Below, piece after piece: positions 7,935-19,484 of a stretch of 20,402 nucleotides of DNA (position 1 is the stretch's first letter; each line of letters starts with the position of its first letter). The notes under the pieces are model-generated. The model saw nothing but the letters and a program-made list of their open reading frames with translations, made no database searches and had not been told where the DNA came from. Location: positions 1 to 20,402 of the IMG/VR virus record IMGVR_UViG_3300030107_006051. The stretch is one strand, 5' to 3'. The stretch is from a virus. The translations under genes and the position numbers were made by a program.

Positions 7935-7962
7935 TTGACAAATGGTTTCATTGTGTTATACT
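7935..7962 (+). promoter_or_regulatory. Strong sigma-70 promoter with extended -10
   Basis: TTGACA (7935-7940) is a perfect -35 box. It is followed by a 16-base spacer and TATACT (7957-7962), one mismatch from TATAAT, preceded by TGT, an extended -10 (TGn). The start of transcription should fall near 7969, only about 17 bases before the ATG at 7986. This is the best promoter in the window and should be read by unmodified host RNA polymerase, so an early phage promoter is likely. Confidence 0.85.
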
Positions 7963-7985: not shown

Positions 7986-8168
7986 ATGAGCGGTGTGAAA
8001 ACAAGACGACAAGGTGCATCAAATCACCGATACTGGTATGAGAAGGACACGGACACGCGATTGGTAAGAGTCCTTCGTATTACTGGTGGGAAAAAGTCTT
8101 GGTTTTGGGCTGTTCGTACTGGTGAAGAATATCGTGAGGTTCCCTCCGATAAATGTGAATTAAGATAG
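7986..8168 (+). CDS. Small basic protein (60 aa), first gene of early unit
   Basis: The ATG is preceded by GGAGGGG (7974-7980) at a spacing of 5. A TTG further upstream (7935) is part of the promoter -35 box and cannot be the start. The 60-aa product is basic and aromatic-rich, with TRRQGASNHRYWYEKDTDTR and RITGGKKSWFWAVRTGEEYR. It has no cysteine pair or membrane segment. It could bind nucleic acid or a host protein. It is the first gene behind the strong promoter, a common place for small host-takeover proteins, but I do not recognise a family. The real-gene call rests on promoter, RBS and position. Confidence 0.72.
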   Translation: MSGVKTRRQGASNHRYWYEKDTDTRLVRVLRITGGKKSWFWAVRTGEEYREVPSDKCELR

Positions 8169-8182
8169 ATTTTTAACAGGTG

Positions 8183-8228
8183 CATAGATTGGGTCGGCGT
8201 GTCTATGTTACCTTTTTTTGAAGCCGAC
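8183..8228 (+). promoter_or_regulatory. Possible H-type RNA pseudoknot ahead of the HTH gene
   Basis: Two interleaved perfect inverted repeats are present. Stem 1 pairs CATAGA (8183-8188) with TCTATG (8202-8207). Stem 2 pairs GTCGGC (8193-8198), which lies in the loop of stem 1, with GCCGAC (8223-8228). Loops of 4, 3 and 15 bases suit an H-type pseudoknot. A T7 run (8213-8219) sits between the last two arms. The element ends 5 bases before GAGGA (8234-8238), the apparent ribosome binding site of the next gene. It does not match a riboswitch class I know. Confidence 0.5.
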
Positions 8229-8247: not shown

Positions 8248-8469
8248 ATGGCATTTTCAGCTAACTCTAAGACTCGTAAGGTTGTTGACTATCTCTGTGA
8301 GGGTCGTACCCTGACAGCGGCACAGGCTCGCGCTCGCTTCGGCATCGCGAACTTCAGTGCCACGATGTCAAGCATTCGGAACACCGTTGAGGCATACGGT
8401 AACTGGGAAGTTACCACGGATGTCGCGAAGAATGGTGCTACCAAGTATGGTATCATCCGACTTTCGTAG
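8248..8469 (+). CDS. Small HTH-like DNA-binding protein (73 aa)
   Basis: This 73-aa protein has GAGGA about 9 bases upstream of its ATG. TLTAAQARARFGIANFSATMSSIRNTV (about residues 21-47) reads as a helix-turn-helix: a first helix ending at the RFGI turn and a recognition helix from about 36. YGNWEVTTDV...TKYGIIRL would then be a two-strand wing. I recall similar short winged-HTH proteins in T4-like marine phages. Its base composition stands out: hand counts give 36/60 G+C at 8281-8340 and 33/60 at 8341-8400, against 27/60 in nrdJ at 5761-5820 and 15/60 at 14281-14340. Such codon use suggests high expression. With a promoter upstream and a terminator behind, it may be an abundant early DNA-binding regulator or nucleoid-like protein. 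No target site is proven. Confidence 0.78.
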   Translation: MAFSANSKTRKVVDYLCEGRTLTAAQARARFGIANFSATMSSIRNTVEAYGNWEVTTDVAKNGATKYGIIRLS

Positions 8470-8478
8470 TCTTACATA

Positions 8479-8511
8479 AATTCAGCCTATGACGCACGCA
8501 TAGGTTGAATT
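8479..8511 (+). other. Perfect-arm hairpin downstream of the HTH gene
   Basis: The arms 8479-8491 and 8499-8511 pair over 13 bases (one G-U) around the 7-base loop ACGCACG. There is no T-run behind it, so it is not itself an intrinsic terminator. It may stabilise the 3' end of the mRNA, act as a protein-binding palindrome, or belong to a small RNA with the terminator that begins 5 bases later. Its CCTATG/CATAGG arms recall the CATAGA/TCTATG stem upstream of the gene. Confidence 0.75.
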
Positions 8512-8516
8512 AAATC

Positions 8517-8573
8517 GGGGGGTAGAACGATTAAGTAAGTCCAGAGAGGCTCATCGTTCTGCCCCCCTTTTTT
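8517..8573 (+). terminator. Strong intrinsic terminator
   Basis: A 15-bp stem is formed by six G plus TAGAACGAT (8517-8531) and ATCGTTCTG plus six C (8553-8567), with one U-G pair and a 21-base loop. Six T follow, then A and five more T. This ends the unit that begins at the promoter at 7935 and separates it from the glycan cassette. Confidence 0.93.
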
Positions 8574-8638: not shown

Positions 8639-9622
8639 ATGTCAACAGTAGTTCCAGATAATTTTGAGTTTCAAATAAATCAAGAAGAATCCAAACCGCT
8701 GGGCGGAACGGAATTGATTTACAATCGTGTTATGGATTGTATTGATGATGAGTTAAAGGACGAGTTTATTATTGTCCCACAGCGTGTTCGTGAAGAACAT
8801 GTAAAAGATTCTCGCAAGAAGATTTTGTGGCTCCATGACCTTGCAGAAGACCCGGAGTCTGAGCACTTAAAGTATGAAGATAATCGGCAGATGTTTGAGA
8901 AGTTTGTTTTCCCGAGCAACTGGGCGCTTTGGGAGTTTCATCAAAAACTTGGAGTTCCTTTGGAGAACTCTATCGTTATTCCGAATTGTATTGAGCAGAT
9001 TCCCGTTCACGAAAAGCCCAAGGATCAAAAGAAGAAGATTATTTATTTTTCAACACCACACCGTGGTTTGAATATCCTTGAGTCTGTGATTCGCGTAATG
9101 GAAGATGCCCGTAACGATTTTGAGGTTGATGTATATTCCAGCTTCAAGTTATATGGTCGTGATCAACAAGATGAGCTTCCTGAGTTTAAGGAACTATATG
9201 AAAGGCTTGGCGAATTAAAGACTGTTAATTATCTCGGAACAGTTTCTAATGATGAAATTCGCAAAGCTCTGACGGAGACTCATATTCTTGCATACCCAAG
9301 CACTTATCTAGAAACGTCTTGTCTTGTTGCAATTGAAGCAATGGCAGCAGGATGTATGGCAGTTGTTCCCAATTGGGGCGCTCTCCCTGAAACTTGTGCG
9401 CGATTTGCTACGATGTATGATTACCATCCAAATCCATCACAACATGCCGCAGTTCATTATCATTATCTTTGTGGTGCTTTGAATAATTTTTGGAATGACA
9501 CTTCTCAAAGTATTTTAGAGATGCAGACATCATACTACAATTATTTTTACAGCATGGATATGTGTAAGTTTAAGTGGAACTCTTTATTGAGGGGATTACT
9601 TAATCGTGATACTGGTCAATGA
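8639..9622 (+). CDS. GT-B glycosyltransferase (GT4-like)
   Basis: This 327-aa protein starts at ATG 8639 behind a strong GAGGAGG (8626-8632). An in-frame TTG at 8621 precedes that RBS and is rejected. The N-terminal half holds LGGTE (21-25), the glycine-rich acceptor-side loop. KKIIYFSTPHRGL (132-144) opens the donor-binding domain. AYPSTYLETSCLVAIEAMAAG (218-238) is the E-x7-E signature (E225, E233) that holds the sugar-nucleotide in GT4 enzymes, followed by VVPNWGALPE. The donor sugar and acceptor cannot be read. It opens the glycan cassette right after a terminator and a possible promoter, and the next gene begins within its end. Confidence 0.88.
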   Translation: MSTVVPDNFEFQINQEESKPLGGTELIYNRVMDCIDDELKDEFIIVPQRVREEHVKDSRKKILWLHDLAEDPESEHLKYEDNRQMFEKFVFPSNWALWEFHQKLGVPLENSIVIPNCIEQIPVHEKPKDQKKKIIYFSTPHRGLNILESVIRVMEDARNDFEVDVYSSFKLYGRDQQDELPEFKELYERLGELKTVNYLGTVSNDEIRKALTETHILAYPSTYLETSCLVAIEAMAAGCMAVVPNWGALPETCARFATMYDYHPNPSQHAAVHYHYLCGALNNFWNDTSQSILEMQTSYYNYFYSMDMCKFKWNSLLRGLLNRDTGQ

Positions 9623-10127
9623 TGTTTTAGGTAAAGTTGAGCTTGAGAACTTATACAGTAGGTTAATTAATGACGAGTCTTGGTATCTTTCTAGAGGTAG
9701 TAAACCAACAGATTTAACCGAGGGTACATTTCTCGGGCTTGACGTTTATGATGAAAACACCATAAAAGAATTTTGGGCTGGGTATTTTGAATCTGTTCTT
9801 TTTAGGATTATAGATAAGTGTAGAGAACAGAATGGTGTGGAGTTGCCTGATAGAATTGAAAGGATTCATCTGGTAGCAAAGCAAGAGAATGCAAATGTAA
9901 GTTTCCATACGGATCATAATGATCCACGGGCAATATCCTTAATTGGGTTGCTGACACCGACATGGGAAACTGCATGGGGTGGAGAGTTTGTTTGTGGAGA
10001 CGAGGTTGTAAATCATACACCGGGTAGCTTTGTTTGTATTAGAAGCAATCAGTCTCACAATGGGTTTGGTCCGAACCAGAAGACTCCTTATTGGAGAATT
10101 GTGGTAAATTATATATTGATGGAGTAA
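9606..10127 (+). CDS. 2OG-Fe(II) oxygenase (prolyl-hydroxylase-like)
   Basis: This 173-aa protein probably starts at GTG 9606, with GAGGGG about 9 bases upstream inside the preceding gene, giving a 17-base overlap. The iron triad is H101-x-D103 (SFHTDHND) and H151 (QSHNGFGP). R164 (YWRIVVNYI) is the likely 2-oxoglutarate anchor. WGGEF (124-128) lies in the core beta strand. Length fits the minimal catalytic domain of the family. Substrates could be a proline or other residue on a virion protein, or a sugar or lipid intermediate. The neighbours make a glycan-linked job plausible, for example making a hydroxyl that is then glycosylated, but this is inference. Confidence 0.85.
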   Translation: MILVNDVLGKVELENLYSRLINDESWYLSRGSKPTDLTEGTFLGLDVYDENTIKEFWAGYFESVLFRIIDKCREQNGVELPDRIERIHLVAKQENANVSFHTDHNDPRAISLIGLLTPTWETAWGGEFVCGDEVVNHTPGSFVCIRSNQSHNGFGPNQKTPYWRIVVNYILME

Positions 10128-10129
10128 TA

Positions 10130-11053
10130 ATGAAAGCGTTAGTAACAGGTGGTGCTGGTTTTATTGGAAGCAATCTCGTAGATCAGTTGATTGATGATGG
10201 GCATGATGTGTTTATTTTCGATGATTTGTCCACAGGAAAAGTTGAGAATGTTAATTCAAAGGCTTGGTTTGATGTGCCTATTGACATTTCTTCCGATACG
10301 ATGCGTTGGTATATGAGTGAGTTTATGCGAGCCAATAAGATTGATACTATATTTCATCTGGCAGCAGCGGCACGGGTTCAGCCTTCTATCGAAGATCCTC
10401 TATCTTTTAATGAAACAAATGTAACAGGAACTTTGGCTCTTTTGAAGGCTGCTGTAGATAATAAGGTAAATAGGTTTATCTTTAGCTCGTCCTCTTCTGT
10501 ATATGGCGATGGTGCATATACACCAACAGATGAGAATCACCCACTTAATCCGATGAGCCCTTATGGTGCCCAGAAATTAATTGGTGAGATTTATTGTAAG
10601 CAATTTTATAGGACGTATGGATTGCGATCAACGTGCCTTCGCTACTTTAATGTATATGGTGAGCGACAGTTGCTTGAGGGTGCATACACTCTTGTAATGG
10701 GAAAGTTTGCACAACAAATTCTAGATGGTAAACGTATGACAATTCGTGGTGATGGAGAACAGCGACGAGATTTTACATATGTTGGTGATGCAGTCAAGGC
10801 AAATATCTTGGCAGCAACAACCGAAACTTCGGCAGCAACGCGAGGAAAGCCTATTAATATAGGTAGTGGGGACAATCGTTCGGTGAATGATATTGCTGAT
10901 ATGCTTGGGGGAAAGCGTGTTTATGTTGATCCTGTACTTGAACCCAAAGAAACTTTGGCTGATAACGGAGTCGCAAAATACTTACTAGGATGGGAACCAA
11001 CCGGAAATATTGAAAACTGGATTGAGGGTTATAAAAAGGAATTAGGAATATGA
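10130..11053 (+). CDS. NAD-dependent sugar epimerase/dehydratase (GalE-like SDR)
   Basis: This 307-aa protein starts at ATG 10130 behind GGAG (10121-10124). The open frame extends upstream, but only into the oxygenase gene. The Rossmann motif is TGGAGFIGS (6-14). SSSSVYG (120-126) holds the catalytic Ser/Thr region, and the SDR pair is Y145-x3-K149 (SPYGAQK). HLAAAARV and RYFNVYGERQ are typical of extended SDR sugar enzymes of the UDP-glucose/GlcNAc 4-epimerase type. It probably interconverts a nucleotide sugar at C4, supplying a donor to the transferases around it. It lacks extra dehydratase residues that I could identify, so 4-epimerase is favoured, and exact substrate is unknown. It ends in an ATGA overlap with the next gene. 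Confidence 0.9.
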   Translation: MKALVTGGAGFIGSNLVDQLIDDGHDVFIFDDLSTGKVENVNSKAWFDVPIDISSDTMRWYMSEFMRANKIDTIFHLAAAARVQPSIEDPLSFNETNVTGTLALLKAAVDNKVNRFIFSSSSSVYGDGAYTPTDENHPLNPMSPYGAQKLIGEIYCKQFYRTYGLRSTCLRYFNVYGERQLLEGAYTLVMGKFAQQILDGKRMTIRGDGEQRRDFTYVGDAVKANILAATTETSAATRGKPINIGSGDNRSVNDIADMLGGKRVYVDPVLEPKETLADNGVAKYLLGWEPTGNIENWIEGYKKELGI

Positions 11054-11973
11054 TTGATAAACTTGCAGTATATGTATTAACATATCATGAACATACGGCA
11101 GATCAACTAGAGCGATGCTTTTGGTCGATTGATAATCAACCAACCGAATTGGAATATAATGTAATTGTAAATTACAATTCAACCAAGCCTGAGCATTTTG
11201 AAACGCTTAAAAAGAATGTGCCTGAAGAGTATACACTCATCAAAACCAAGAGTGATGGATTTACTGGAAAGGGTACAAACTCTTGTCTTGATCATTATCT
11301 AGAAAATTATGAGGATAATGGTTGGACTCATATGTGTATCATTGACGGTGATGATTATTACTATCCAATGGCATTTGATATTTTAAATGAGCTTGAGCAG
11401 AAGTCTGATTTTGATTATCTTAGCGGAATGGCGCATCATGTAGATTCTTTGCGACCACTTCCACCACACCGCGATGACCCTAGAAAGGTTTATCCATATC
11501 AACCCAAGCGTTGGTTGTGGTCTTTTGTGGACAATCGCCTCCCAGTGTTTCCTTATATTTTTTGGAGTGGTGAACAAATTCCCGGCGGTGAAGTCACTCT
11601 TTGCATGTCTACGAAGGCAGTTAAGTCAGACATTCGCGCACTGGAGGGTCCGAATAGAGTGGATGACTACTTCTTTATGTTGAAGGCAATTATTGCACAC
11701 ATCAATAAGGAAATTAAATTCGTCAGCACAGATTGTAATGATATTTACGTTTACGACTGTACACAGGACAGTATCACTCGCGGAAATGATGACTTTGATG
11801 AAGAAAAGGGATGGCCCTTTGATAAGAATGGTCTTGTCTATGCAGAGAATAATAAGGAAGAGTACAAGATATTGGAAGGAGTTACTCGACAACATCTTCC
11901 TTATGTGACAATGCCTCAGATTTGGACGCATGAATTAAAATGTCAATATGCTGCCATGAACGAGCTTGAGTAA
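11050..11973 (+). CDS. GT-A glycosyltransferase (GT2-like)
   Basis: This 307-aa protein overlaps the epimerase by 4 bases (ATGA). The N-terminal strand is VYVLTYHEHTADQLERCFWSI, typical of GT-A nucleotide binding. The DxD-like metal site is IDGDDYYYP (D99, D101, D102). The later part has WSGEQIPGGEVTLCMS and an acidic ALEGPNRVDDYFF, where an ED-type catalytic base might sit (D217/D218). The length is normal for a single GT-A domain. No membrane segment is present, so it works in the cytoplasm. The donor and acceptor are not determined. It forms a stop-start pair (TAATG) with the next transferase. Confidence 0.82.
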   Translation: MIDKLAVYVLTYHEHTADQLERCFWSIDNQPTELEYNVIVNYNSTKPEHFETLKKNVPEEYTLIKTKSDGFTGKGTNSCLDHYLENYEDNGWTHMCIIDGDDYYYPMAFDILNELEQKSDFDYLSGMAHHVDSLRPLPPHRDDPRKVYPYQPKRWLWSFVDNRLPVFPYIFWSGEQIPGGEVTLCMSTKAVKSDIRALEGPNRVDDYFFMLKAIIAHINKEIKFVSTDCNDIYVYDCTQDSITRGNDDFDEEKGWPFDKNGLVYAENNKEEYKILEGVTRQHLPYVTMPQIWTHELKCQYAAMNELE

Positions 11974-12728
11974 TGACTACACATTTCAAGATAATCATAC
12001 CTGTATACAATGCGGAGTCATATATCCAGAACGCATTGATCAGTGTAATGAATCAGGATTACGATAACTTTGAGTGTATCATTACCGATGATTATTCCAC
12101 AGATAATACTGTAGACGTTGTTGATGACTTCATTTATGAGCATAAACTTGAAGATTATTTTCATCTTCGTAGGAATCCGAAAAGAATGTTTGCGCTGTAT
12201 AATCTACACTCTATGATTCTTGATTCGGAAGCAGATGTCGAAGACGTTTATATTACATTGGATGGCGATGATTGGCTAGAGGGTAGTGATGTCTTATCTA
12301 AGTTGGATCAGATTTATACAGATGAGCATTGTTGGTTAACTTATGGAAGTTATGTTATGTACCCAAGCGGTCAAGATTCGTCTTTTCATGTGAGCGAGTA
12401 TCCCCAAGAAATTATTGAATCTGGTGATTTCCGAAAAGATCCTAAATGGAGAGCAAGTCATCTTCGCACATTCAAACATAAACTTGCGAGGAGAATAAAG
12501 GAAGAGGATCTTCTGGATGAGTATGGGAACTATTATCGGTATGCTTATGATCAGGCACTTATGTTTCCGATGATGGAGATGGCGCGGGAACGTATACGAT
12601 TTATTCCTGATATTCTTTGTGTATATAATGATGAGAATCCAATGAACGTCCACAAGGTTGATCCAGAGGTTCAGATTCAGATGGCAAAGAAGATTCGTGA
12701 AAATCATGAGAAGAAGGAACGGTTATGA
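11973..12728 (+). CDS. Glycosyltransferase family 2 protein
   Basis: This 251-aa protein has a classic GT2 pattern. KIIIPVYNAESYIQNALISV (6-25) is the first beta-alpha unit. D39/D40 (IITDDYSTDNT) contact the nucleotide, and LDGDDWL (D97, D99, D100) is the metal DxD site. A C-terminal helical tail is highly charged (KKIRENHEKKERL). It begins at TAATG on the stop of the previous gene and ends in ATGA with the next, so three transferases are translated in tandem. No membrane helices are present. It may add one sugar of the same glycan. Confidence 0.92.
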   Translation: MTTHFKIIIPVYNAESYIQNALISVMNQDYDNFECIITDDYSTDNTVDVVDDFIYEHKLEDYFHLRRNPKRMFALYNLHSMILDSEADVEDVYITLDGDDWLEGSDVLSKLDQIYTDEHCWLTYGSYVMYPSGQDSSFHVSEYPQEIIESGDFRKDPKWRASHLRTFKHKLARRIKEEDLLDEYGNYYRYAYDQALMFPMMEMARERIRFIPDILCVYNDENPMNVHKVDPEVQIQMAKKIRENHEKKERL

Positions 12729-13645
12729 ATATCATATTTGATAATGTCAATTTCAATTCGACGGCAGGACCATATTGGTTTGCCAATAAGTTAAAATCTG
12801 CATTTGAGAAGAAGGGGCATGTAATCAATGAGGATGTGGATAAAATTCCTGATGCTCAGTTAAGTTTTGTGTCTGCTTCTTCTAGAATTACAGGAGTTCC
12901 TTTATTCCAAAGGCTTGATGGTATCTGGTATGATACTGACACAAATTATCAAAAGATGAATGAGCCAATTAAGAATACTTATGACGTTGCTGATGGTGTA
13001 ATCTTTCAATCTAAATTTGATCGTGATTTTATTGGTCATCATTTTGGGAATCATTCCAATTATACAATCATACACAATGGGTCTGATTTAGATTATGTAA
13101 AAGGCATTCCTCCGGCTACAGGTTTAGATGATGTTCCAACTGTATGGGTGTGTGCTTCTTCGTGGGTAAATGCTTCTGGCAATTTACGGCACAATAAAAG
13201 ATTGAATGAAAATATTCGATACTTTCAAGAGCATTCTTCTTCGTCTGATATTCTTTGTGTTGCTGGGGATGTTGGGTCTTACAAAAATCCAGATCCGGCA
13301 AGAATAATGTTTTTAGGTGATTTGGAAATTTTCTCTTTGATTTCTCTGTATAAGCGCGCTGACTGGTTTATTCACTTGGCTTCACAAGACCATTGCCCAA
13401 ATGTTGTGGTGGATGCCAAAGCGGCTGGGTGTCGAATTGTATGTGCGTCCTCTGGTGGGACAGCCGAGATCGCTGGGAAAGATGCTGTTGTAGTGACAGA
13501 TCCAAATGAGCATGGGTTTGCAGCATATAACTATAACGTACCAACTACTTTAGATTTCAGTAAGAAGTTGGATAATTGGAATGATGATGTGGATTTGTCT
13601 ATTGATTCTGTGGCAGATCAATATTTGACTTTTATGGAGAAGTGA
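12725..13645 (+). CDS. GT-B glycosyltransferase (GT4-like, variant signature)
   Basis: This 306-aa protein starts in the ATGA overlap. STAGPYWFANKL (12-23) is a loop like the GT4 acceptor-side glycine loop. VIFQSKFDRDFI and IIHNGSDLDYV (115-125) are linker and hinge pieces common in GT4 proteins. The C-terminal donor site reads HCPNVVVDAKAAGCRIVCASSGG (223-245), where the usual first Glu of E-x7-E is absent (Cys or Pro) and the second is D230. This weakens the classic signature, and many phage GT-B members carry such changes. Donor and acceptor are unknown. It is probably functional, as the Rossmann-like segments are intact. Confidence 0.8.
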   Translation: MNIIFDNVNFNSTAGPYWFANKLKSAFEKKGHVINEDVDKIPDAQLSFVSASSRITGVPLFQRLDGIWYDTDTNYQKMNEPIKNTYDVADGVIFQSKFDRDFIGHHFGNHSNYTIIHNGSDLDYVKGIPPATGLDDVPTVWVCASSWVNASGNLRHNKRLNENIRYFQEHSSSSDILCVAGDVGSYKNPDPARIMFLGDLEIFSLISLYKRADWFIHLASQDHCPNVVVDAKAAGCRIVCASSGGTAEIAGKDAVVVTDPNEHGFAAYNYNVPTTLDFSKKLDNWNDDVDLSIDSVADQYLTFMEK

Positions 13646-13646
13646 T

Positions 13647-14264
13647 ATGAAACGGGTAGATATACTAAATCATCTTATAAAAAGTAGAAATTATTCTTCT
13701 TATTTAGAGATTGGGATCTGGGGCGGGCGTTCCAATCCTAAGCACAACAATGTTGTTTGTGAGAAAAAAGTTGGCATTGATCCAGATACTAATTTTAAGG
13801 GAGATTCGATTCTTGGTTGGACCTCCGATCAATATTTTGATTTTTTGTATAATTATACGAATGGTGTGGAGTTTGATATTATTTTTATTGACGGTTTGCA
13901 TCTAGAAGAACAGGTGGATAAGGATATTGAAAATTCTCTAAATTTTTTGTCATCTGATGGTCTAATTGTAATGCACGATTGCTCCCCTCCAACAGAATGG
14001 CACGCAAGAGAAAATTATGATGGCGGTCAGTGGAATGGTACTGTATATAAATCGTTGGTTAAGTTGAGGTGTGAAAATCCAAATTTGTATATTGAGACTG
14101 TAGATACGGATTGGGGATGTGGGATCATTGACCCTTCTCGTACTCAAAATGTTTTTTCTCAATTTTCTAAGGAAGAGATTAATAATAATTTTGAGTTATT
14201 TGATGATCATAGAACAGAAATTTTAAATTTAATTTCTGTAGATGTTTTTTTGGAGAGATATTGA
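13647..14264 (+). CDS. SAM-dependent methyltransferase-like protein (class I, Methyltransf_24 type)
   Basis: This 205-aa protein starts at ATG 13647, with GGAG about 7-10 bases upstream, one base after the previous stop. Class I fold pieces are SYLEIGIWGGRS (18-29, motif I), VGIDPD (42-47, motif II acidic residue) and FDIIFIDGLHLEEQV (76-90, motif IV with D82 and H85), followed by LIVMHDC (106-112). Motif I has G-x-W-G-G rather than G-x-G-x-G. These features match small O-methyltransferases of glycan clusters. The gene is A+T-rich (many TTT, ATT and AAT codons). Sugar hydroxyl methylation is the likely job from context. The exact substrate cannot be read. Confidence 0.72.
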   Translation: MKRVDILNHLIKSRNYSSYLEIGIWGGRSNPKHNNVVCEKKVGIDPDTNFKGDSILGWTSDQYFDFLYNYTNGVEFDIIFIDGLHLEEQVDKDIENSLNFLSSDGLIVMHDCSPPTEWHARENYDGGQWNGTVYKSLVKLRCENPNLYIETVDTDWGCGIIDPSRTQNVFSQFSKEEINNNFELFDDHRTEILNLISVDVFLERY

Positions 14265-14265
14265 T

Positions 14266-14943
14266 ATGAAATTTATAGACGCGGCAGAAAATAAAAAAAT
14301 GGGAAGTAGTCATAAGTTTTTAAGTTATTTTAAAGATTATGATTTTCATTTTGGTCAGTTAGATAGAAATAAGCCATATAATATATTAGAAATTGGTGTA
14401 CAGCAAGGTGGTGGTTTGTGGACACTAAAAGAATATTTTCCAAATTCATCTATTACAGGATTGGATATTGATAATAATTGCAAGCAATATGAAAGTGAAG
14501 AGAATGATATTGTGGTTTTTATAGGATCACAAACGGATGAGGGTTTGTTGGAAAAAATATCTAAAGAGAGGGGTTCTTTTGATATTATAATAGATGATGG
14601 TGGTCATACCATGAAACAGCAGAAGATCAGTTTTTTTAAATTGTTTCCTTTGTTGAATGATGATGGTATATACATTATTGAAGATTTGCATACATCATAT
14701 TGGCCTTCATTTGGTGGTGGTATAAACAATGAAGAAACAATGATGAGTACGTTAAAGCAACTATCTGATAAAAGCACTTCAAGTTGGGCATCTAGGAATG
14801 ATAGGGCTGATAATAATAAAAATAGTTTAAAGTTTGATTATTTTGATGGACATATAGATTCAGTTCATTTTCATGCTTCTATTTGCTTTATATACAAGAA
14901 AGAATATAACGACAAAACTGGAAGATCCACAGTAAGGATATGA
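14266..14943 (+). CDS. Class I SAM O-methyltransferase, sugar/macrolide-sugar type
   Basis: This 225-aa protein starts at ATG 14266, with TTGGAGAG about 8 bases upstream; the longer frame to 14242 runs into the previous gene. Motif I is LEIGVQQGGGLWTL (41-54), motif II is LDIDNNC (66-72), and the metal/catalytic motif is FDIIIDDGGHTMKQQ (105-119, D110, D111, H114). YIIEDLHTSYWPSFGGG (136-152) is the other conserved run. These motifs are those of sugar O-methyltransferases such as the tetracenomycin rhamnose 2'-O-methyltransferase and MycE. It probably methylates a sugar hydroxyl, with Mg helped by the DDGGH motif. This gene is among the most A+T-rich in the window (15/60 G+C at 14281-14340), a possible sign of recent acquisition. 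Confidence 0.88.
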   Translation: MKFIDAAENKKMGSSHKFLSYFKDYDFHFGQLDRNKPYNILEIGVQQGGGLWTLKEYFPNSSITGLDIDNNCKQYESEENDIVVFIGSQTDEGLLEKISKERGSFDIIIDDGGHTMKQQKISFFKLFPLLNDDGIYIIEDLHTSYWPSFGGGINNEETMMSTLKQLSDKSTSSWASRNDRADNNKNSLKFDYFDGHIDSVHFHASICFIYKKEYNDKTGRSTVRI

Positions 14944-14947
14944 CAAA

Positions 14948-15814
14948 ATGATGACAGAAAATATTGATATTATACTTCCGACCGCTGGGAAAAAATCTCG
15001 CTCAATTACAATGCTTGCTGTTCGTTCTTTTTTAGAGTTTAGTGAGGGTTTTAATTTTAGAATTTTTGTTGTCGAAAATTCTAATGATAATTCTTATCGG
15101 GATGATGTTTTGGGATTGTCTGAAAATGTTTTTTGGATTCAAAATCCAATACAATCTCAAGATGAATATGCTGGGTCACTTGCCAACGCAAAAGGGTTAG
15201 AGCGGGGATTAGAAGAGGTTGATTCGGAATATGTTTTTTTATGTCATAATGATGTAATTGCGTGCCATCAAAACTGGATGAGGTATTTATTTAACAAAGT
15301 AAAAAAAGAAGGATATAGCCTGTGCGGCTTTCAGCATGATGAACACCCAGATCGGATATTTGCTGCTCATATTTCTGGAATACTCACTAAAACAGAAATC
15401 GCGAAGACGGTATCCTTGCGTCCTTCTTCTGGATCAATTCCTATGGATGTTGGAGATTCTTTGACAAAATATTGTCGTGACAATGATTTGAAATATTTTA
15501 TTTGCGAGAATACAAAAATTGATCATCTAGCAAATCCAAAAATTAACAAGTGGTTTGATGGGACATATATAGAAAATCACAGAAACGGTAGTGACTGGTA
15601 TGAAAAAAATGTTCCGTCGCCGTTTAAATCTTCATCGTCTGTAAAATCTTTTGATGATGATCTTAATGTTGTTTGGATGCACTTGGGTAGAGGAACACCA
15701 AAGGCTCGCGGAAATTACTCAAAGGCAAATAATAAAAATAAAACATCAGCAGATCAATGGACTATTTTTGCAGATGAATATATATTTAATGGAGGGCAAA
15801 CCTGTGAGAAGTGA
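14948..15814 (+). CDS. GT-A-like glycosyltransferase
   Basis: This 288-aa protein has the GT-A beginning IDIILPTAGKKSRSITMLAVRSFLEF (6-31) and a nucleotide-binding strand FRIFVVENSND (37-47). The metal-site position reads FLCHNDVIACHQNW (97-110), an HND variant of DxD. Residues after 130 include CGFQHDEHPDRIFAAHISG and a tail with WMHLGRGTPKARG (244-256). Either ATG 14948 or ATG 14951 can start it; AAGGAT lies about 10 bases upstream. Its end overlaps the next gene by 11 bases. Family assignment is moderate because only the N-terminal half shows clear GT-A features. It shows the same X-N-D site as the transferase at the right edge. Confidence 0.7.
   Translation: MMTENIDIILPTAGKKSRSITMLAVRSFLEFSEGFNFRIFVVENSNDNSYRDDVLGLSENVFWIQNPIQSQDEYAGSLANAKGLERGLEEVDSEYVFLCHNDVIACHQNWMRYLFNKVKKEGYSLCGFQHDEHPDRIFAAHISGILTKTEIAKTVSLRPSSGSIPMDVGDSLTKYCRDNDLKYFICENTKIDHLANPKINKWFDGTYIENHRNGSDWYEKNVPSPFKSSSSVKSFDDDLNVVWMHLGRGTPKARGNYSKANNKNKTSADQWTIFADEYIFNGGQTCEK
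15791..15796 (+). promoter_or_regulatory. Ribosome binding site fixing a GTG start
   Basis: GGAGGG lies 7 bases before the GTG at 15804, inside the end of the preceding gene. The longer open frame (to 15651) has no comparable signal and would overlap the previous gene by 164 bases. The GTG therefore decides the start. Confidence 0.75.
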
Positions 15815-16457
15815 ACTTGTTGAAGACATTGATGATTTGGTAGTTCCTGAAGAATATCAGAAAATTTGGGATGATATTAATTTGCCAATCCAAACCCAAA
15901 AAGGCATGGATCACAATCTATCAGAAGAGGCTCTACTTACTTGCCTAGATCAACTTTCTAGGCGGGGGTATTATTTGGTATCCATCGCGGAACAATTTGG
16001 TGCGAAGAATATTGCAGAGGTTGGCACCGCACAGGGTTGGCAATTCTATACGTTTGCTCATTATGCCAAAAAGGTTGGCGGTTATGTTTGGAGTTGCGAT
16101 CCACGCGATGTTCGGGACAGAAACTATGTTAAAGAATATGCGGACGTAACAGATTTCGTTTCTGGGACAAGTGAAGAGATGGCAGAGACAATTAAGTTTT
16201 CTGGTGAAAAGATTGACATGTTTTATATTGATGGTTGGCATGAACAGGGTTGGGTATTACAGGACGTAGAGCGTCTTAAAGAATTTCAGTCGGATAGTCC
16301 TATTTGGATTTTTGACGATTATGATGAGCGGTTTGGTTGCTCTTTGGATATAGATGAAATCTGCGAGAGGATGCCGGATCATTATGTATACCATGTGGGA
16401 AATGCTGCGAGTGGTCAACCAAACCATCAGGTTGCAGTTTTTGGGAGAATTGAATGA
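15804..16457 (+). CDS. SAM-dependent methyltransferase-like protein (Methyltransf_24 type)
   Basis: This 217-aa protein starts at GTG 15804. The N-terminal third (to about 65) is helical. Class I fold pieces follow: NIAEVGTAQGWQFYTF (69-84, motif I), VWSCDPRDV (95-103, motif II with D99), and IDMFYIDGWHEQGWVLQDVE (137-156, motif IV with D143 and H146), then IWIFDDYDERFGC (167-179). The D-G-W-H with a following Asp-rich strand matches the small O-methyltransferases in this cassette at 13647 and 14266, so they may share an ancestor. Its composition is clearly less A+T-rich than 14266, so it may have a different origin. The target is likely a glycan hydroxyl; it ends in an ATGA overlap with the next gene. 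Confidence 0.78.
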   Translation: MRSELVEDIDDLVVPEEYQKIWDDINLPIQTQKGMDHNLSEEALLTCLDQLSRRGYYLVSIAEQFGAKNIAEVGTAQGWQFYTFAHYAKKVGGYVWSCDPRDVRDRNYVKEYADVTDFVSGTSEEMAETIKFSGEKIDMFYIDGWHEQGWVLQDVERLKEFQSDSPIWIFDDYDERFGCSLDIDEICERMPDHYVYHVGNAASGQPNHQVAVFGRIE

Positions 16458-17422
16458 ATATTCTATTCTATTCTAGTCATGATAATTTGTCTGTTGGCTC
16501 TTATAGAATTTGGGTTAGGGATTTGAATAGATATTTTAATCATGTGGGTATATCTTCTCAGATTTCAATTGGCAAACTTCCCGACATTAATGGGTTTGAT
16601 GTAGTTATATTTGGTAAGGGGGATCATGTCAAAGCGCAGGAAGTTAAAAAAGCCAACCCAAATAAAAAGGTTGGTGTCATTAATCTAGCAAGTGATGTGA
16701 AGGATCTTGATGTAGATTTTATAATTGTCGGCTCGATTGAAGAGCAGGCAAGTCATTCTTCATACGATAATGTATTCTTATTTCCTTTGATTGAGGATAT
16801 GTATCAAAATAATATTATGTATAAGGAGCATATCTCTTCTGATAAGCTGACAGTTGGGTTTCATGGTAATGTTACTCATACCGCAAATTTTTTAAAAGGT
16901 TTAAATGGAGCATTGCAAAGATTTTCAGAACACTATCCAGTAGAATTTGTGGTTATAACATCTGCACCAGTGAATCAATCTTTACTTCCAAAAGGAGTTA
17001 GTGTTTCTGTAGAACCTTGGATTTATGAAAATATGCCCAATCGCATTTTATCATTTGATCTTGGTGTTGTTCCAAATGCAGTAATCGGAGGGGTTCATTC
17101 TGAGTCTGTGACTGAGGGATTATTTTCTACGGACTATGAGATGAGATTTAAGAACAAATCAAATGCGGGGCGAGCATTTGTGTTCCATCAGTTGGGGATT
17201 CCTGTTGTGGCTGATATTACTCCCAGTAATTTTCATGTTATGGGAAATCCAGATTGTGGATATTTGGTTGCAAATGAAGAAGGCTGGTATAAATCATTAT
17301 TGAAATTGTCTGACTTTAGGGAGAGGCAGAGAATAGCTGATAATGCCAAGGTAGAATTTGACCGGCTATATAATCCATATGATTGGGCGAAGCGCCTTTA
17401 TCACAACATAAAGGAAATATAA
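16454..17422 (+). CDS. GT-B-like glycosyltransferase
   Basis: This 322-aa protein starts in ATGA with the previous gene. It opens with a GT-B-type strand MNILFYSSHDNLSVGSYR, followed by INGFDVVIFGKGDHVKAQEV. TVGFHGNVTHT (133-143) marks the start of the donor domain, as in GT4 enzymes. GRAFVFHQLGIPVVADITPS (239-258) is the C-terminal strand-loop that usually holds the donor, though the E-x7-E signature itself is missing. The N-terminal domain is short. I call it GT-B from fold cues rather than from catalytic residues. It could also be a non-catalytic relative. Its TAA overlaps the next ATG by one base. Confidence 0.7.
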   Translation: MNILFYSSHDNLSVGSYRIWVRDLNRYFNHVGISSQISIGKLPDINGFDVVIFGKGDHVKAQEVKKANPNKKVGVINLASDVKDLDVDFIIVGSIEEQASHSSYDNVFLFPLIEDMYQNNIMYKEHISSDKLTVGFHGNVTHTANFLKGLNGALQRFSEHYPVEFVVITSAPVNQSLLPKGVSVSVEPWIYENMPNRILSFDLGVVPNAVIGGVHSESVTEGLFSTDYEMRFKNKSNAGRAFVFHQLGIPVVADITPSNFHVMGNPDCGYLVANEEGWYKSLLKLSDFRERQRIADNAKVEFDRLYNPYDWAKRLYHNIKEI

Positions 17423-18168
17423 TGGAAAAGGGTATATTGTACATTGCATTTGGTGATAATTTTTTAAAGGAGCTTACGCTGTCTGCCGAGTCGGTTAAGA
17501 AGTTTTGTCCTGATCTTCACATCACAGTGTTTTGTGATAAGCCAATTGAGTCTGAGTTTATAGATGATTGTAGAATGATTGAAGCCAGACATCTAAGACC
17601 AAAGATTGACTATATTATGCACTCTCCTTACGAGAGAACTTTGTTCTTAGACACCGACACTATCATCGACTATGACATTAGTGACATGTTTGACATCCTT
17701 GATAACTTTGATATTGCGTTAGCCCATGATCTTGCGAGAAAACGAAAGAAATATTCTGATTCAATACCAGAGTATGGCGCAATTCCATATTCTTTCTCTG
17801 AATTGAATACGGGTGTAATTGCGTTTAAGAAGAACGAAAAAACACATCTTCTATGGAATCGTTGGCAGGAAAATTTTTATAAGTGGTATGAGCATTCTCC
17901 TTGGGATCAGCCTTCTTTTCGGGTTTCCTTATGGCAGACCACTCTAGAAGATGATCTGAAGTTGTATGTGTTTCCTGTTGAATATAATATCCGAAGTAAA
18001 GCAAATCGTGAGAAGAATAGAAGAATGCATGATGAATTTGGTGATGAACATCTAACTCCTCGCATTTATCATATGCACGCAGATACCAGAATTAATCAGG
18101 GTGTCTATGAGATTAATAGTGTGGATGAGGCTTTGGATATTTGTAAAAAGAATTTTTTGGAGTATTAA
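17422..18168 (+). CDS. GT8-like nucleotide-sugar transferase
   Basis: This 248-aa protein starts at TAATG with AAGGAA about 6 bases upstream; the longer frame to 17383 lies inside the previous gene. ILYIAFGDNFLKELTLSAES (5-24) is the GT-A first strand and helix. ERTLFLDTDTIIDYDISDMF (71-90) carries the D77-x-D79 metal motif in the position seen in GT8 (glycogenin/galactosyltransferase-type) enzymes. ELNTGVIAF (127-135) is the conserved Asn-Thr-Gly loop, and PWDQPSF is another typical motif. These are retaining transferases that use UDP-Glc or UDP-Gal donors. An epimerase upstream could supply UDP-Gal. The closeness to a true GT8 assignment is moderate. Confidence 0.8.
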   Translation: MEKGILYIAFGDNFLKELTLSAESVKKFCPDLHITVFCDKPIESEFIDDCRMIEARHLRPKIDYIMHSPYERTLFLDTDTIIDYDISDMFDILDNFDIALAHDLARKRKKYSDSIPEYGAIPYSFSELNTGVIAFKKNEKTHLLWNRWQENFYKWYEHSPWDQPSFRVSLWQTTLEDDLKLYVFPVEYNIRSKANREKNRRMHDEFGDEHLTPRIYHMHADTRINQGVYEINSVDEALDICKKNFLEY

Positions 18169-18169
18169 A

Positions 18170-18760
18170 ATGACCGTTCCGATGATGCACAAAAAAGAAT
18201 ATGGATTTATTGAGTCGCATTTAAAAAATGATATGACTATGTTGGAATGGGGCTCCGGTGGCAGCACGTTATATTTTCCGAAATTTGTCAAATCATATTA
18301 CAGTATAGAACATGATCAGGACTGGTATGACAAGATAAAGCCTCAGATTTCAGATAATGTTAATTATTACCATATTCCCAGTAGCGTTCCGTGGGAGCGA
18401 CCTTCGGACTGGAGGGATAATCCAGCGCATCATAATACGCCAGTTGAATTGTTTTATGATTATATAGATTATGTAGATGAGTTGGACGTTGAATTTGATT
18501 GTATTTTAGTCGATGGTCGATGTCGTGTTCATTGTGCAATTAAAGCCCTGTCATACCTAAAAGATGATGGTGTTTTATTTTTTCATGATTTTTATCCAAG
18601 GAAAAAATATGGATACTATGATGTTCTATACTACTATGATCCGATTGGGGGAGTGTCTGATACTACCCAGACGGTTATTGGGTTAAAAAAGAAGGATATA
18701 TCTTTATACAGAAGTGTCGATTCGATTACCGAAGAATTGGAAATGTTTCATGACTTATGA
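18170..18760 (+). CDS. Methyltransferase-like Rossmann protein
   Basis: This 196-aa protein starts at ATG 18170 with TTGGAG about 7 bases upstream; the open frame extends only into the previous gene. TMLEWGSGGSTLYF (23-36) is a class I motif I (G28-S-G-G), SIEHDQDWY (45-53) holds the motif II acidic residue E47, and FDCILVDGRCRVHCA (109-123) gives motif IV with D115, then VLFFHDFYP. The VDGR piece with a following Arg resembles small methyltransferases found beside glycosyltransferases. SAM binding is probable but unproven, since no residues specific to a substrate class are visible. It overlaps the next gene by 11 bases. Confidence 0.68.
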   Translation: MTVPMMHKKEYGFIESHLKNDMTMLEWGSGGSTLYFPKFVKSYYSIEHDQDWYDKIKPQISDNVNYYHIPSSVPWERPSDWRDNPAHHNTPVELFYDYIDYVDELDVEFDCILVDGRCRVHCAIKALSYLKDDGVLFFHDFYPRKKYGYYDVLYYYDPIGGVSDTTQTVIGLKKKDISLYRSVDSITEELEMFHDL

Positions 18761-19484
18761 GAATCTTATAAAAGATAAAACCGTTGCCATCGTGGGTCCA
18801 GCTAAGTATATGGAAAATCTTCCTTTGGGAGAAGAGATAGATAATCATGATTTGGTTGTTCGTGTTAACAGAAGCATAGAAACCATAGACGACTATTGTG
18901 ATAACATAGGATCTATGGCTGATATATTATACACATGCCTTATAGAAACAGCACAAAATGCCGGAAGGTTGGATGTTGATGAATTGATGAATACATATAA
19001 AGTAAAGTATGTGTGCGCTCCTCCGGTATCTGATATGAAGGGGCTATCCACAAAAACAAAAATACATCATATGGCAAATCCTAAAACAGTTGAGAGAATA
19101 AAAAAGAATATACCGTTCAGGGTCGTTGACCACGAATTCCATACAAGTCTTGCAGAGAGCGTTGATTGCCGACCGAATACAGGATTTTTGGCTATCTACG
19201 ACCTTTTGCGGTTTAAGCCAAAGTGTCTTTCAATCTATGGTTTCAGTTTTTATCTTGATGGATTTATATCTGGATGTAAAGATGGCATAGAACAGGAAAA
19301 GGGTGTCACTGCTGAAGAGTTTGGTCATATGGCTTTTGTGTCAAAACGTCATGTTCAAAAAAACATGTGGGGATACGCCAAGAAAACTCTTATAGATAAT
19401 CCTAGAGTTCAATTGGATAGTGTGTTGAGTAAGATATTGAGACTTGATGAATTGAGTAAGGATGAATTTTGTGAAAAAACTTAA
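18750..19484 (+). CDS. GT29 sialyltransferase-like protein
   Basis: This 244-aa protein starts at ATG 18750, 11 bases inside the previous gene; the longer frame to 18714 lacks an RBS. Residues 12-41 (VAIVGPAKYMENLPLGEEID, then HDLVVRVNRS) follow the pattern of the GT29 L-sialylmotif: a hydrophobic strand, G, a Gly before ID, then HD-x-V-x-R-x-N. Residues 138-169 (VDCRPNTGFLAIYDLLRF, then LSIYGFSFYL) follow the S-motif: P-x-T-G-x-x-A and a later Y/I-G-F. A conserved-looking HM at 193-194 lies in the region of the later family motifs. If active, it would transfer a CMP-linked sugar such as sialic acid. No CMP-sialate synthetase is in the window, so the donor must come from elsewhere or differ. 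Matches are to the motif pattern, not to a search. Confidence 0.72.
   Translation: MTYENLIKDKTVAIVGPAKYMENLPLGEEIDNHDLVVRVNRSIETIDDYCDNIGSMADILYTCLIETAQNAGRLDVDELMNTYKVKYVCAPPVSDMKGLSTKTKIHHMANPKTVERIKKNIPFRVVDHEFHTSLAESVDCRPNTGFLAIYDLLRFKPKCLSIYGFSFYLDGFISGCKDGIEQEKGVTAEEFGHMAFVSKRHVQKNMWGYAKKTLIDNPRVQLDSVLSKILRLDELSKDEFCEKT
19457..19461 (+). promoter_or_regulatory. Ribosome binding site favouring a GTG start
   Basis: AAGGA ends 9 bases before GTG 19471 but directly abuts the alternative ATG at 19462, which is therefore a poor start. The GTG also gives a standard GT-A beginning (KKLKIFIVTYKRSD). Confidence 0.55.

Follow-up and report, generated by a model that had tools for sequence, protein, structure and literature searches.

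A leader element upstream of a small winged-helix gene

The window, namely the whole stretch of DNA analyzed (20,402 bases of an IMG/VR virus record), contains a gene for a small winged-helix (HTH) protein, which is preceded by a short ORF and followed by an intrinsic terminator (Table 1). Similar ORF ends were seen before the HTH gene in L001, L002, L007, and L016. The HTH gene is followed (8639-19484) by an extended series of ORFs resembling glycosyltransferases, nucleotide-sugar epimerases, and methyltransferases, which are partly annotated. A preliminary description of this DNA had placed two interleaved 6-bp stems (P1 and P2), with loops of 4, 3, and 15 nt (L1, L2, and L3), immediately upstream of the HTH gene, together with a T7 run and a 3' end 5 nt before GAGGAA; reading the element directly from the window letters confirmed all of these, except that one arm begins one base before the position given by a naive count; the T7 run is located at 8213-8219.

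Table 1. Positions of the leader element and neighboring features in the window
Feature	Position	Strand	Remarks
Sigma70-like promoter, best upstream	7935..7962	+	TTGACA-16-TATACT, extended TG; consensus match only
ORF, 60 aa (MSGVKTRRQGASNHRYWYEK...)	7986..8168	+	Directly upstream of the pseudoknot; no Pfam or PHROG match
P1 5' arm (AGGTGCATAGA)	8178..8188	+	Inner CATAGA, 8183-8188; partner 8202-8213; drawn in geometry searches
L1 (TTGG, 4 nt)	8189..8192	+	Read from the sequence
P2 5' arm (GTCGGC)	8193..8198	+	Partner 8223-8228
L2/junction (GTG, 3 nt)	8199..8201	+	Read from the sequence
P1 3' arm	8202..8213	+	TCTATG (8202-8207) plus outer part TTACCT, T8209 bulged
L3, unpaired remainder (TTTTTTGAA)	8214..8222	+	A/T-rich; after outer P1 pairing
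P2 3' arm (GCCGAC)	8223..8228	+	3' end 19 nt before ATG
Ribosome-binding sequence GAGGAA	8234..8239	+	Seen in the sequence; pseudoknot ends 5 nt upstream
Winged-helix (HTH) gene, 73 aa, phrog_4973	8248..8469	+	ORF list and profile matches; ATG at 8248
Intrinsic terminator after the HTH gene	8517..8573	+	GGGGGG...CCCCCC TTTTTT; read from the sequence and folding

P1 was longer than 6 bp because of the outer pairs A8178-T8213, G8179-C8212, G8180-C8211, T8181-A8210, and G8182-T8208, and therefore only approximately 9 nt of L3 stay unpaired; L3 comprises 15 nt (8208-8222) if P1 is restricted to its inner 6 bp. U8189 of L1 is also able to pair with G8201. The two stems are interleaved and the loop lengths are able to span the grooves, as in an H-type pseudoknot. 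None of 1000 dinucleotide shuffles reached the pseudoknot score of the window (1 of 1000 equaled it in an earlier, looser search), and the knotted form was estimated, with a standard pseudoknot penalty, at -20.7 kcal/mol and the best nested alternative for this segment at -12.2 kcal/mol, both being rough energies. On the other hand, folding without pseudoknots gave an ordinary value for the window leader (z = -0.15), which is expected because nested folding is blind to a pseudoknot.

All 51 members of the protein alignment matched phrog_4973, the function of which is not annotated, and PF14090 (HTH_39) at E-values of up to 0.1 (best, 3.1e-06); the score of the window member against HTH_39 (17.4) was below the Pfam cut-off (21.3). 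The AlphaFold model (mean pLDDT of 85.7) was a winged helix with three helices and a beta wing (H-H-H-strand-strand). No sequence relatives of the protein were found in the PDB, the nearest solved structures by fold were generic winged-helix regulators with E-values that were not significant, and neither the defence library nor NCBIfam gave a match. Large contigs with the gene encode T4-type gp46-like and terminase genes, the gp46 being nearest to those of Kyanoviridae-like cyanophages, and the class II ribonucleotide reductase of the window was nearest to those of Roseobacter and Lentibacter phages; the carriers are uncultivated and mostly T4-like tailed phages.

Conservation and covariation of the pseudoknot

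Four scans of viral contigs yielded 177 HTH homologues, including repeats of one place, and the collapse of similar leaders left 77 non-redundant leaders. These were searched for a fixed geometry only (10-32 nt between the end of P2 and the start codon; L1 of up to 7 nt, L2 of up to 6 nt, and L3 of 6-20 nt), and a pseudoknot at -18 kcal/mol or better was taken as a match. The minimum length of L3 was imposed because the duplex search otherwise eats into this loop, with P1 and P2 being misassigned (L011, L014, L061, and L074). A pseudoknot was found in 76 of the 77 distinct leaders (98.7%), in which the letters were almost entirely different, while the background rate was 4.0% in dinucleotide shuffles and 7.9% in 509 leaders of other genes on the same contigs; a chance origin was therefore rejected. 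The start codon was misassigned in the sole failing leader (L156) and in the odd L155, and a P1 hairpin was visible further upstream in each. Two weak P1 stems scored poorly (the L035/L036 group and L144). Alignment by eye also revealed the same two interleaved stems with other letters in nearly all leaders, for example, GCTGGG/CCCAGC (L018), GAGACTT/AAGTCTC (L037), GACATCG/CGATGTC (L046), and GACTC/GAGTC (L064). The link between an H-type RNA pseudoknot and the HTH gene, initially proposed for the window, thus holds across the homologous leaders. At the level of sequence comparison, this evidence is decisive, with the same architecture being kept under changed sequence in all but one of the distinct leaders, and in our judgement, which is not a computed value, the element is almost certainly a genuine conserved RNA pseudoknot.

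P1 ranged between 6 and 13 bp and P2 between 5 and 8 bp across the family. With pairing maximized by the program, L1 was 1-3 nt long in 67 of 75 homologues. L2 had mostly 0-1 nt, and L3 6-12 nt in 71 of 75; short L1 and L2 with such an L3 correspond to the dimensions of a pseudoknot with coaxial stacking. L3 was A+T-rich (77%), its last two positions favored A (0.63 and 0.71), and a purine directly followed the 5' arm of P2 (the first L2 position) in 86% of homologues. An A-rich 3' end of L3 and a purine after the P2 5' arm are common in coaxially stacked pseudoknots. A purine-rich motif comparable to GAGGAA follows P2 in the homologues, and the distance from the end of P2 to the ATG was 13-25 nt.

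The preliminary description had also allowed for attenuation by the T7 run. P1 has 11 bp in the window's clade and T6-T7 comes directly after it, as in a transcription attenuator, but the loop of P1 is 13 nt, and a terminator-like U tract after P1 was absent in the other clades that keep both stems, L3 being A-rich or mixed in these (TCAAAACAA and ATTGATTTGA). Attenuation by P1 and the T run is, therefore, very improbable.

Compensatory changes in both stems, which the preliminary description had named as supporting evidence, were assessed in a MAFFT alignment of 17 leaders from the window's clade and its neighbors (set 1), using the two stems described there plus one outer pair. Paired bases occupied 92.3% of the cells versus 30-45% for slid partners, both sides had changed in 11 of the 13 counted pairs of P1 and P2, and none of 500 shuffles reached the covariation score. 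All six core pairs of P1 had changed on both sides; in P2, 96.7% of the cells were paired and four of the six pairs had changed on both sides. Kinship alone may lift related sequences above shuffles, and this is addressed by the slid controls and by an independent second clade (clade B; 11 leaders), in which 7 of the 8 pairs of P1 had changed on both sides. P2 of clade B (GACUC/GAGUC) was almost invariant, and the first half of L3 was constant; since register shifts blur the identity per element, we relied on the aligned clade B result alone in this respect. Within the clade comparison, P1 seemingly diverged faster than third codon positions, both of which may be saturated. Between clades, the stem sequences were wholly different, whereas the putative recognition helix of the protein was nearly constant.

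Since the product is a winged-helix protein, normally a DNA binder, the interleaved inverted repeats might instead be bound by it as a DNA operator. A DNA palindrome would not favor G-T over A-C; in set 1, however, there were 29 G-U/U-G cells against 3 A-C/C-A cells, indicating selection on the sense RNA. The fixed distance to the SD sequence and two interleaved repeats with the loop lengths of an RNA pseudoknot also argue against an operator at the DNA level, which is hardly credible.

The element appeared to be restricted to one gene family. When every SD-preceded start was scored in three large contigs (142, 109, and 74 kb), the HTH leader ranked 2nd, 5th, and 1st, respectively, and, by inspection, the other high scorers were within coding DNA or terminator hairpins. 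Exactly one HTH gene was present in each of 10 large contigs (10/10). The element was not found before other gene families, either beyond background among the 509 other leaders or in the three large contigs. No close relative of the HTH gene was detected in isolated phages searched with three family proteins, and no relatives in GTDB genomes. A distant winged-helix subfamily (pelagiphages, Melnitz phages, and DLP6) was reached with a made-up HTH query, and the leaders of these distant relatives in isolated phages (HTVC008M, Melnitz, and DLP6) were without such a pseudoknot.

Relation to known RNA elements

Searches of Rfam 15 at the gathering score gave no match in the window and only tRNA and manA elsewhere in 20 related loci, and a permissive scan of the window leader (E-values of up to 10) returned matches at the level of chance only (drz-agam, caiA, and RybB), in agreement with the initial view that no known class is matched. 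No description of the element was found in the open-access literature searched; many motifs of a 2017 catalogue of 224 candidate RNAs are expected to be in Rfam. A regulatory leader pseudoknot is a known kind of element, while the family, its winged-helix partner, and the pattern of conservation appear to be new. Since the letters change almost completely, sequence searches and predictors of nested folds miss the element.

The preQ1-I and SAM-II riboswitches are minimal H-type pseudoknots before the SD sequence, similar to the element here. A small-molecule riboswitch of this type would be consistent with the compact size, the position, and the mild conservation of the A-rich L3 3' end and the junction purine. 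However, in preQ1-I and SAM-II the loop bases that bind the ligand are invariant and the target genes are diverse, and neither feature was seen here: no loop position was near invariant across clades (the best being A at 0.71 and A at 0.76 beside P2), and a single gene family lies downstream. Together with the lack of an Rfam match at the gathering score in the window and the 20 related loci, this makes a riboswitch quite improbable. The earlier proposal of a cis-regulator, therefore, stands as the natural reading of a leader element, but not in its riboswitch form, and we infer that an autoregulated leader is the best of the options offered there.

In the mRNA of E. coli rpsO, the pseudoknot is located beside the SD sequence. 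It controls its own gene (S15) in an autogenous manner (PMC3014915), as proposed here; the ligand is, however, a ribosomal protein, and the gene and sequence differ. T4 gp32 represses its own mRNA via a leader pseudoknot, and T4-type gene 32 was regarded in a 2010 review as possibly the only viral pseudoknot in translational autoregulation (PMC3014915). In gene 32 of T4, T2, and RB69, as in the present family, a coaxial H-type pseudoknot is found in a phage leader before the gene for a small (here predicted) nucleic-acid-binding protein. On the other hand, the gene 32 pseudoknot is located approximately 67 nt upstream and nucleates the cooperative binding of gp32 over an A+U-rich stretch, whereas the one here adjoins the SD sequence close to the ATG; the gene 32 product is an OB-fold SSB, whereas the product here is a winged helix and not an SSB of the gp32 type; and, unlike the gene 32 operator, the pseudoknot here is kept in nearly every homologue. 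The likeness would be functional only, the two being unrelated.

The manA and wcaG RNAs, which occur in marine metagenomes and T4-like cyanophages, are cis-regulatory candidates (PMC2864571), and the element matched neither family. manA (RF01745) is a multi-stem RNA of approximately 190 nt before metabolic genes, in contrast to the pseudoknot of approximately 50 nt before one HTH gene. Copies of manA RNA were located shortly downstream of the HTH gene (within 0.5 kb) in L024 (1095-1304), L051 (1460-1669), and L080 (3427-3636).

Possible control of the HTH gene

These results suggest that the element very probably serves the HTH gene as an RNA control element, one that is outside Rfam, and it probably acts on the translation of this gene. 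Our specific proposal, to which we give about an even chance, is that translation of the winged-helix gene is controlled by the pseudoknot, which adjoins the 30S site in the leader and is most likely bound by the gene's own product. Located at the upstream edge of this site, the pseudoknot would limit initiation when folded or when bound by its ligand, and the product, a small predicted nucleic-acid-binding protein, would close a negative feedback loop. Self-binding is the simplest hypothesis for the ligand because of the one-to-one link with a gene of this type and the precedent of T4 gene 32; taken by itself, we rate it at even or slightly below. Within a clade, P2 and L3 are constant whereas P1 drifts freely, and this contrast suggests the binding site: a ligand may read the P2/L3 region, P1 serving as a structural clamp of free sequence. 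A broader and more tentative reading, which we hold somewhat less likely than that, is a new family of autogenous translational operators, in which the winged-helix protein recognizes the pseudoknot of its own leader, P2/L3 and the protein co-diverge between clades, and P1 drifts under the pairing constraint only.

Several points weigh against self-binding. RNA binding by the product is something that we infer, and winged-helix proteins are usually DNA binders. The stems differ by clade while the recognition helix is near constant, which needs either recognition of the shape or contacts specific to each clade. Because the SD sequence lies outside the pseudoknot, folding alone need not block it. 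The two poorly scoring P1 stems and the distant winged-helix relatives without a pseudoknot also count against the proposal.

The main rival, in itself rather unlikely, is a constitutive 5' structure that needs no specific ligand and either stabilizes the 5' end of the mRNA or holds the ribosome-binding site open. A sigma70-like promoter was recognizable in 41 of the 77 leaders, its -10 box ending a median of 13 nt before P1; therefore, the predicted transcript begins almost at the pseudoknot in these leaders, nearly the whole of which consists of the pseudoknot and the ribosome-binding sequence. In the leaders of L047, L064, L066-L068, L070, and L076, a tRNA-like 3' end was seen by eye a few bases upstream of the pseudoknot, and therefore tRNA processing could create the 5' end of the mRNA. 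This proximity to a predicted transcript start, the several copies directly after a tRNA gene, the strong terminator at the end of the unit, and the keeping of structure with a free P1 sequence are consistent with a constitutive role. However, a generic stabilizer should recur before other genes on the contigs, whereas the element belongs to one gene family only; a hairpin would suffice, and a predicted 5' tail of approximately 6 nt remains; within a clade, the sequence of P2 and L3 is kept beyond structural need; and the pseudoknot of the window is intercistronic, the stop codon of the upstream ORF (8166-8168), which has a promoter-like site of its own at 7935-7962, being 9 nt before P1.

Less likely still is cis-regulation without self-binding, in which the pseudoknot is an operator for another factor, such as host ribosomal protein S1, another RNA-binding protein, or another phage regulator. 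The structural evidence (covariation and the 76 of 77 leaders) applies equally to this reading, and the position beside the SD sequence suits S1 or the 30S entrapment known for rpsO (named in PMC3014915), but the element is tied strictly one-to-one to a single gene family, which points to the gene's own product.

If the protein does bind its own leader, this would add a second phage case of autoregulation through a pseudoknot, widespread in uncultivated phages and absent from all of the isolated ones searched, and the protein would be a winged-helix RNA binder, the specificity of which is traceable across many natural variants. The element also offers a small and clean system (approximately 50 nt), with its structure, position, and partner gene being known from comparison alone.

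The whole region 3' of the HTH gene folds with a z of -7.6. Past the HTH stop codon, a second strong hairpin at 8479-8511 (AATTCAGCCTATG...CATAGGTTGAATT) precedes the terminator. The apex of the terminator (8533-8553) contains a conserved AAGTAAGYCCAGAGAGRCTCA, comprising a 4-bp stem (AGYC/GRCU) and the hexaloop CAGAGA, while the outer stem varies; the exact apex pattern was found in 5 viral contigs only, and the names of all five (5/5) were among the carriers of the HTH gene of the window's clade.
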